Below are positions 14,237 to 29,118 of a stretch of DNA of 32,300 nt, piece after piece (positions within the stretch are counted from its first letter, which is position 1; every line of letters begins with the position of its first letter). Source of the DNA: Hydrogenothermaceae bacterium (GTDB lineage: Bacteria > Aquificota > Aquificia > Aquificales > Hydrogenothermaceae). The translations under genes were made by a program, and so were the position numbers. The notes under the pieces are model-generated. The model ran no database searches, was not told the DNA's origin, and saw only the letters and a program-made list of their open reading frames with translations. The stretch covers positions 1 through 32,300 of the forward strand of contig WIAL01000021.1 of the NCBI GenBank assembly GCA_015519975.1, in the 5' to 3' direction.

Positions 14237-15292
14237 ATGAAAGTAGCTGTTGGGATGAGTGGTGGGGTAGACAGCTCAGTAGCTGCTCTACTCCTTAAAG
14301 AAAAAGGATATGACGTTATAGGTGTTACTTTAAAGCTTTCATCTATAGAAAGTTCATGTGATATACAGGTTTGCTGTTCACCTCAAGATGTAAAAGATGC
14401 AAAAAAAGTAGCTTCTTATTTAGGAATAGAGCATTACACGATAGATTGGGAAAAGGATTTCAAAAATAAGGTTATTAATTATTTTGTAGAAGATTTAAAA
14501 AGAGGGAAAACTCCAAACCCATGTAGTGTATGCAATAGAGAGATAAAAACTGGAAAACTTTATAAGTATGTAAATCTTGTTTTTGATGCAGATTTTTTAG
14601 CAACAGGACATTACATAAAAACAGTAGAAATAAATGGTCAAAAACTTATTAAAAGAGGAAAAGATTTAAAAAAAGACCAGTCTTACTTTATGGCTCTTGT
14701 TGAAAAAGAAGTTTTAAACGGTCTTTTATTCCCACTTGGAGATTTTACAAAAGAGGAAGTTAGAAAAATGGCAGAAAAATACAGTCTTCCTGTATCACAA
14801 AAAAAAGACAGTTTTGAAATATGTTTTACTGCAGGGAAAACACCGGCTGAGTATATTGAAGAAAACCAGATATTTGAATTACAAGAAGGAGACATTATAC
14901 ATATATCAGGAAAAAAATTAGGTAAACATAAGGGACTTGCCCACTACACAATAGGGCAGAGAAGAGGTCTTGGTATTAGATGGCACAAGCCTCTTTATGT
15001 AATTGATAAAAATGTTGAAACTAACACAGTTATAGTTGCTGAAAATGATTTTCTTTTAACTGATACTGTAAAGGCAGAAAATTTCAATTTTCATCTACCG
15101 ATAGAAAATTGGAAAGGAAATCTAAAAGTACAGGGAAGATACAGACAAAAACCTGTTGATGTTGAAGATTTTTCATATAAAAATGGTATCTTAGAAATAA
15201 AATTTAAAGAGCCTCAAATAAAATTTGCTTCAGGTCAGATTCTAGCAGTTTATAAAGATGATATTTTATTAGGCGGCGGAATTATTATATAG
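14237..15292 (+). CDS. mnmA: tRNA-specific 2-thiouridylase MnmA
   Basis: Adds sulfur to U34 of the tRNAs for Lys, Glu and Gln, using ATP to adenylate the base. The 351 residues show the PP-loop at the N terminus (GMSGGVDSSVAA), the catalytic cysteine pair in NPCSVCNREIK and FEICF, KKDQSYFM, the GLAHYTIGQRRGLG block, and a C-terminal beta-barrel domain. It directly follows pilC, so it shares the pilus promoter unless an internal one exists. It overlaps the tail of the opposing tRNA nucleotidyltransferase gene by eight bases; both concern tRNA maturation, but they are on opposite strands. Confidence 0.97.
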   Translation: MKVAVGMSGGVDSSVAALLLKEKGYDVIGVTLKLSSIESSCDIQVCCSPQDVKDAKKVASYLGIEHYTIDWEKDFKNKVINYFVEDLKRGKTPNPCSVCNREIKTGKLYKYVNLVFDADFLATGHYIKTVEINGQKLIKRGKDLKKDQSYFMALVEKEVLNGLLFPLGDFTKEEVRKMAEKYSLPVSQKKDSFEICFTAGKTPAEYIEENQIFELQEGDIIHISGKKLGKHKGLAHYTIGQRRGLGIRWHKPLYVIDKNVETNTVIVAENDFLLTDTVKAENFNFHLPIENWKGNLKVQGRYRQKPVDVEDFSYKNGILEIKFKEPQIKFASGQILAVYKDDILLGGGIII

Positions 15293-16867
15293 ATTTTATA
15301 AACCCTACAGCTTCTTCTTTTGTTTTTATTTTTCCTTCTATTTGAGCTTTTAAAAGCAGTTCTTTTATTTTTCCAACTTTTGGAGAAGGTTTTAAGTTTA
15401 AGATTTCCATAATCTCTTTACCAGATAAAAGAGGTTCTTCTATTATTTCTTTTGTGTAGATATTGAAATAATATTCCTGCATATATTTTATAAACTCTAA
15501 AATCTCATTTAAAAAATTTTTATCTTCAGATGTTGCTAAGCTATCACTTAATGTTAATAAAAATAAATGGGGTGCTGTATCTTTATTTTCATACCACCAG
15601 AAATTTAAATCTTTATTTTGTAAATAACCCTCTTTTTGTAAGAAAAAAAGTCTGGTAATAGATAAATGTTTTTCTATTAATTTTACAGCAAACTCGGAAG
15701 CTTTTTTTCCAAGTGATAATTCCTCAGATATTTTTTCTTTAAAGATTTTGGCTCCTATTTTGTCGTGATTTTTATATATGCCTTCTTTTTTCTCGGTATA
15801 CGCCTTTCCTATATCATGAAAAAATGCAGAAAGTTTTAAAAGGGTTTCGTCTGTAAAATCTGAAAGGAAAATTTTTTTGCCGAAATTTTTAAGAAATCTT
15901 CTGTCTATAAAACTTTCTTTTTTTTTAAATAATCTTCAAGGTATTCTAAAGTTTTTAATGAATGGTTTAATAAATCATATTTGTGGTATTTTTCTAAATT
16001 TTTAGTTCTAATCATATCCTCTATTTGAGGAATTATTTCCTGTAAAACCTCTTTTTCAATAAGTTTATCTAATGTTTTATAACTTCCTTCTTTGTCAAAT
16101 ATTTTCAATATCTCATCTCTTACTCTTTCAATTGGAGAAGCTTTTAAGAGAGTCTTATTTTCTTTAACCCATTTTTCAAAATCTTTATCAATTTCAAAGT
16201 CAAGCTCCTGAGCTATTCTGTAGCCTCTAAGTATTCTAACAGGATCTTTTTGAATGTTTTCGTAAGAAATAGGTCTAATTACACCAGCCTGCAGGTCTTC
16301 AAGTCCTCCTGATGGGTCAAATAAAACAGTCTGAGAAGCTCCAAGTCCAAGGGCATCATCAAATAGAATAGCCATTGCATTTATTGTAAAATCTCTATTC
16401 AAAAGGTTTTCATTTAATCTTTCAACAATTTTAAGTTCTTTTTCCTGAAAATCTAAATTACTTTCTAAAATATCTGATACATCCATATAAGAAAAATCAA
16501 ATCTATATTTTACATCTCCTTCAAAGAAAACAATTGAAGCAACTGTTGTTTCTTTTTCAAACTTGAAAATATCACCTCCAACTATTTTTTGAAAATTTTT
16601 TACTATTTCAAAAGGATCCGTTGTAACTATAAAGTCAATATCTATTTTATTTTTTAATGGCCTGTTTAGGAGTCTATCTCTAACCCAGCCTCCAACAATA
16701 AAAGCAATAGTATCTCTTGATAAAGCTCCTGATAGCTTGTCAAAATATGAGTTATAAAATAAAAGTCCGTGTACGTATTTTGTCTTTATATCAAATTCTT
16801 CTCTTTGTTCTTTTGGTGTGTTTTGTCTGTTTAATATTTTTTCAAGTAGTTTTTCTATCCCAAACAT
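15285..16867 (-). CDS. tRNA nucleotidyltransferase (CCA/poly(A) polymerase family), split by a -1 frameshift
   Basis: Class II nucleotidyltransferase that adds or repairs the 3' CCA of tRNA. The N-terminal frame (320 codons, 16867 to 15905) holds GGWVRDRLL with the DxD metal pair (KIDIDFIV), NRDFTINAMA, and KDPVRILRGYR where most relatives have EDPxRILR. It stops just as the HD domain begins. The continuation lies in the -1 frame without an ATG of its own: it is open from the A9 run at 15918-15926 to the stop at 15285 and encodes FFHDIGKA, NHDKIG and the typical C-terminal end PLLSGKEIMEI to KTKEEAV. Joined at A AAA AAG it would be ~527 residues. Recoding, a sequencing error or a real mutation are all possible. 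Aquifex splits CC- and A-addition between two enzymes, so specificity is open. Confidence 0.88.
15917..15926 (-). other. A9 run with A AAA AAG slippery heptamer (putative recoding site)
   Basis: On the coding (minus) strand the zero frame reads tta aaa aaa aag aaa gtt tta tag. The heptamer A AAA AAG in this register is the classic bacterial -1 slippery sequence of dnaX, and nine consecutive A residues are also enough for transcriptional slippage, as known in Thermus dnaX. Slipping back one base joins the N-terminal frame to the HD-domain frame. I see no convincing downstream stem-loop; only a weak AT-rich pairing follows. Confidence 0.55.
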
Positions 16868-28686: not shown

Positions 28687-29118
28687 TTAATTATTTTTGC
28701 TTTTGCATATTTTTTTTTCACATTTTCCACCACAGGAAGGGTAAACATATTCAATCAGTGAATATACAGTATCTCTTAAAACATCAGAATTTAAGTTATC
28801 TAAAGCCCCTATTTTTAAATAAAGAGTTTCATCCTTATAGTTTTTATAAATACATTTTAATTCGCGAACATGCCCTTTTTTCTTGAATATATGTTCCCTA
28901 ATTGTCTTTTCTACACATCCTTCTATAGATACAATAGATAACTTTTCCTCAGGTTTTATTTGACCTGATAAAAACATAAAAACTCCTTCCATATCTAGTA
29001 AAGGGTTTTCCATTTCTTCAATTAACTTTCTTAAATGTTCAATAAACTTTTCATCAGTGTTATATTTTCCTGGTTTAAAAAGTTCAATAAGTTCGCTCCA
29101 AGTTATTTTGACTTCCAT
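28687..29118 (-). CDS. Hypothetical protein with C-terminal cysteine cluster
   Basis: I do not recognise this 143-residue protein. I start it at 29118, since GGAGGGG lies six bases upstream of that ATG; an in-frame ATG five codons earlier overlaps this ribosome site. It has no signal or membrane segment. The first half is acidic and helical (ITWSELIELF, KFIEHLRKLIEEMENPLLDMEGVFMF), the middle basic (HIFKKKGHVRELKCIYKNY), and the end holds CGGKCEKKIC (C-x3-C-x4-C), a possible metal site with earlier cysteines near 65 and 93. It follows thrS by 16 bases, so it is cotranscribed. Confidence 0.7.
   Translation of the reverse strand: MEVKITWSELIELFKPGKYNTDEKFIEHLRKLIEEMENPLLDMEGVFMFLSGQIKPEEKLSIVSIEGCVEKTIREHIFKKKGHVRELKCIYKNYKDETLYLKIGALDNLNSDVLRDTVYSLIEYVYPSCGGKCEKKICKSKNN

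Follow-up and report, generated by a model that had tools for sequence, protein, structure and literature searches.

A tRNA nucleotidyltransferase gene in a member of the Hydrogenothermaceae, a family of hot-spring and vent bacteria, breaks at nine consecutive adenines and continues in the -1 frame. Is this break a fault in the sequence, the scar of an old mutation, or a means of making two enzymes from one gene? We analysed the surrounding stretch of 32,300 nucleotides ("the window"; Hydrogenothermaceae bacterium, GCA_015519975.1, contig WIAL01000021.1, positions 1-32,300, forward strand), which belongs to a 1.92-Mb draft genome in 65 contigs. We consider it probable that the gene undergoes programmed recoding at exactly nine A's (A9), with slippage of RNA polymerase yielding a short and a long enzyme.

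The split gene and its predicted products

The features of the gene, with the evidence for each, are as follows.

15285..16867, minus strand: whole CC-adding tRNA nucleotidyltransferase gene, in two frames (frames; best PDB matches 3WFO-3WFS)
15905..16867, minus strand: ORF1, zero frame, 320 aa, with catalytic head, neck and first helix of the body/HD domain (Pfam and structural model)
16274..16705, minus strand: PolyA_pol head domain (Pfam, ORF1 residues 55-198)
16016..16201, minus strand: PolyA_pol_RNAbd (neck) domain (Pfam, ORF1 residues 223-284)
15918..15926, minus strand: A9 run, the putative slip site (sequence; identical run in 28 relatives; codons free of synonymous change on the tree)
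15917..15923, minus strand: heptamer A_AAA_AAG in zero-frame register, candidate ribosomal slip site within the A9 (sequence)
15905..15907, minus strand: zero-frame stop TAG, three codons past the AAG that closes the run (sequence)
15285..15917, minus strand: ORF2, -1 frame, HD/body and tail (frame; dN/dS 0.07-0.28 in close pairs)

The minus-strand junction reads GAT TAT TTA AAA AAA AAG AAA GTT TTA TAG. An earlier note on this DNA had described two frames that join by a single -1 slip, a break on the A9 in the A_AAA_AAG register and a zero-frame stop shortly after the run, and the sequence bears out all three. The -1 frame ends at TAA 15285-15287, and ORF1 and ORF2, joined in our script by one extra A, encode a product of 527 aa. 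Neither ATG, GTG nor TTG occurs in the first 70 codons of the -1 frame of the window's gene. The adjacent mnmA (14237-15292, plus strand) is convergent with the CC-adding gene, and the two 3′ ends share 8 bases; the mnmA product thiolates U34 of tRNA-Lys. A second A9 of the window, at 28710-28718, is close to where a minus-strand open frame of 151 aa ends.

The closest PDB entries by sequence are 3WFO-3WFS, which we take to be the AaS structures of Yamashita et al. 2014. AaS is the CC-adding enzyme of Aquifex aeolicus, and its structures are described in PMC3925840 (Yamashita et al. 2014). A structure predicted for a relative with an uninterrupted gene (L015; mean pLDDT 85.8) matches the same entries by fold, with TM-scores to the target of up to 0.90. 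The head and neck domains are present, and the window enzyme is nearer to AaS than to A-adding or CCA-adding enzymes. By sequence and model, the gene is an orthologue of the Aquifex CC-adding enzyme (class II, AaS type), and we predict CC-adding activity for its product. The genome also encodes an 856-aa DHH-nucleotidyltransferase that is of A-adding type by its best NCBIfam match, NF041569, which spans the whole protein yet scores under that model's cut-off. The division of CC- and A-addition known from Aquifex, which had been raised for this gene, would be matched by the gene content of this genome. Whereas the enzymes are orthologous and share a fold, the sampled Aquificaceae genes are uninterrupted and do not contain the run, and most Hydrogenothermaceae genes are split.

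In the L015 model, the split point immediately follows the opening helix of the body/HD domain, and the short form would accordingly consist of head, neck and one body helix. The earlier proposal that the upstream product is head and neck alone is right about these two domains and omits the helix.

Distribution and constraint of the nine-adenine run

Among 41 family genomes searched, most of them drafts or MAGs, we obtained 37 usable sequences of the CC-adding gene. In 29 of these (the window's and 28 relatives), spread over 8 of 10 genera (g1, g2, g4-g9), the gene breaks at an A9 whose codon phase is the same in all of them, and the tail follows in the -1 frame. The run is formed by a Leu or Ile codon ending in A and then AAA AAA AA(G/C/T); the base that follows it is mostly G, and is C or T in Sulfurihydrogenibium and one g5 genome. 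The zero-frame stop lies 1-3 codons beyond the codon closing the run, and no more than 4 codons from the run in 29/29 genes; only 0.4% of distant columns have zero-frame stops as tight as this. Third-frame stops show no significant clustering close to the run. Four of the 37 genes (in g1, g2, g7 and g9) carry ten A's (A10) and an open frame, and three, all from g3 (three species), have an open frame without an A run. In these seven, at least, the gene can do without the split. The earlier note had proposed comparing run length and frame among relatives: most keep the A9 and the break, and g3 alone among the 37 sequences has an uninterrupted frame without the run. The HD motif of the tail seems to be lost in the Sulfurihydrogenibium group (L030-L038) and in G040 (L033).

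Homopolymer runs are error-prone and the source assembly is a draft, which would suit a sequencing or assembly error, and the earlier note had allowed for such an error or a true mutation. Twenty-eight other genomes carry the same A9, however, including assemblies in 1-2 contigs (G015, G018 and G033), and dN/dS in close pairs (0.04-0.15 for ORF1, 0.07-0.28 for ORF2) indicates that both halves are under purifying selection. We therefore rejected sequencing error, recent mutation and pseudogene formation in the source genome, which are scarcely credible against these observations. The idea of two products, in turn, is supported. From the low dN/dS of ORF2, it is very likely that the tail is made and used in A9 species.

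The tail could in principle be a separate protein, translated alone by re-initiation. A two-ORF arrangement is seen in G040 (g10): where relatives carry the A9, this genome has TAAATG, a stop codon directly abutting an ATG in frame, so that an ORF of 289 aa precedes a separate body-tail ORF in the same frame. By this example, the two parts seem able to function as separate polypeptides. Many A9 genes among the 37 sequences, the window's included, have no start codon in the ORF2 frame near the run, however, which makes re-initiation quite improbable as the general explanation.

In a maximum-likelihood tree, the split is common to the family, with the deepest branching weakly supported. Among 117 conserved degenerate columns, those of the run are the only ones with zero third-base changes on the tree, a count that excludes the third Lys column because its third base was supplied by our script. 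In the Leu codon that opens the run, the first base changed 7 times and the third base 0 times. As a control, rluD of the source genome has an in-frame A9 that is not conserved: the run measures 2-8 in 29 relatives. The frame junction thus carries a conserved homopolymer of at least eight residues under nucleotide-level constraint, a combination expected of programmed transcriptional slippage. All four A10 genes are single tips, each inside a clade of A9 genes. Homopolymer indels are frequent, and a single-base insertion would reopen the frame. The count of 29 A9 against 4 A10 has a probability of about 5e-6 under the simplifying assumptions that both states are equally likely (equal mutation both ways) and that tips are independent. 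The persistence of A9 despite so simple an escape suggests that being split is the favoured state.

A second gene split at nine adenines

The whole 1.92-Mb genome contains 26 A9/T9 matches, against ~1000 expected from the dinucleotide composition of the window. In a census of all 26 sites, two further genes look split at an A9. One encodes a CopA-like metal ATPase, split between its HMA domain and the pump (G000:C41:4657-4665; L061, L184; relatives L185-L213). Its run is A9 in 29/30 family genomes and A8 in G003, with A10 in 0/30. The junction reads GAA AAA AAA AG., with a stop soon after, in a codon phase that differs from that of the CC-adding gene; its run contains A_AAA_AAA, so the two genes share the A9 length and not the heptamer register. 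We regard this ATPase as a second candidate for family-wide recoding. The other gene, named by eye as an IS1-like transposase, appears split at an A9 between two ORFs (G000:C15:8692-8700; L052). The dnaX gene of the source genome has an open frame of 499 aa, and its longest A run does not exceed 7.

Replication slippage might toggle A9 and A10 and thereby switch the full-length enzyme off and on, and A10 genes do lie near A9 genes on the tree (for example, L013/L015 and L037/L038). Such phase variation is very improbable: the run is short and fixed at nine in most species, cells presumably require a CC-adding enzyme at all times, and the CopA-like gene has no A10.

A more serious alternative is an old frameshift that is tolerated as long as slippage supplies sufficient full-length enzyme; the short form would then be waste, and the run would persist only because its disruption is deleterious. 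For insect endosymbionts, the review PMC5009743 describes poly(A) frameshifts that slippage partly corrects. Constraint on the run by itself proves no use for the short form; it is also expected in a lineage that is merely trapped, because breaking the run, once the gene is frameshifted, destroys the long form. The open frames of g3 and of the A10 tips fit this account as well. Against it, escape by one inserted base is confined to the four A10 tips and is absent from the CopA-like gene in 30 genomes, and G040 retains both parts as separate ORFs. We regard a neutral trap as unlikely, though far from negligible. The endosymbiont cases, as given in the same review, resemble the CC-adding gene in that slippage at a frameshifted A run restores full length, but they belong to reduced genomes, whereas the run here is conserved and constrained across a family.

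Possible slippage by RNA polymerase or by the ribosome

We infer that the slip is transcriptional rather than ribosomal, and that the cell benefits from the short product or from the ratio of short to long. In the programmed recoding that we favour, a faithful A9 transcript would give a protein of ~320 aa ending a few codons past the run; a slipping RNA polymerase would insert one further A, and translation of the resulting A10 transcript would continue through body and tail to give an enzyme of ~530 aa. The recoding would have been kept since early in the Hydrogenothermaceae.

The main mechanistic rival is programmed -1 ribosomal frameshifting, in which the ribosome would slip back one base at A_AAA_AAG within the run to make the long form. 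E. coli dnaX undergoes -1 ribosomal frameshifting at this same heptamer. The two genes share the heptamer in register (X_XXY_YYZ, mostly with G as last base), a nearby stop and a lysine tRNA seen only with anticodon UUU, here among the 30 of 33 tRNA matches scanned; the heptamer and the tRNA suit ribosomal frameshifting and to that extent weaken the case for the polymerase. GGAG-like purines also occur upstream in a few species. Several observations nevertheless make polymerase slippage the more likely of the two, judging from sequence and by analogy. The constraint covers all nine A's, including the third base of the Leu codon, which lies outside A_AAA_AAG; any of G, C and T can follow the run; and the CopA-like ATPase shares the run length in a different codon phase. 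We found no consistent signal of downstream RNA structure at the run (mean z +0.1 to +0.4) and no consistent upstream Shine-Dalgarno-like stimulator (mean percentile 0.36; strong in a few species only). Ribosomal frameshifting is, on this evidence, rather unlikely. The CC-adding gene also differs from E. coli dnaX in that its shift would lengthen the product. The earlier description of the slippery site stands as to A_AAA_AAG in register and a Thermus-like A9, and needs amending in that conservation extends past the dnaX heptamer to all nine A's.

In Thermus thermophilus, dnaX undergoes transcriptional slippage at nine A/T residues (PMC5009743, PMC3711429). Like the CC-adding gene, it combines a run of nine with a short and a long product in a thermophile; it is a different gene, however, and its long product comes from the unslipped single ORF, whereas the long CC-adding form needs the slip. 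For E. coli copA, PMC5009743 describes a frameshift that yields the pump and a putative copper chaperone. The Hydrogenothermaceae CopA-like gene is also split between HMA domain and pump, but at an A9 and with the pump, not the small protein, requiring the slip. A frameshifted tRNA nucleotidyltransferase is mentioned neither in the main text of PMC3711429 or the first 300,000 characters of PMC5009743 nor in the literature-search matches.

Our analysis points to recoding retained by a bacterial family in an enzyme presumably required by its tRNAs, in genomes that use the same A9 in a metal pump. To our knowledge, slippage recoding has mostly been seen in dnaX, in insertion sequences and in endosymbiont genes undergoing decay. 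Tentatively, nine-A polymerase slippage may be a standing, family-wide two-protein device in at least two unrelated housekeeping genes (the CC-adding enzyme and the CopA-type metal pump), with the short CC-adding form acting as a functional partner or regulator of tRNA end synthesis. The finding makes RNA-polymerase slippage directly testable as a regular device of gene expression in thermophiles, and likewise the role that a catalytic tRNA nucleotidyltransferase half would have without its tRNA-binding tail.
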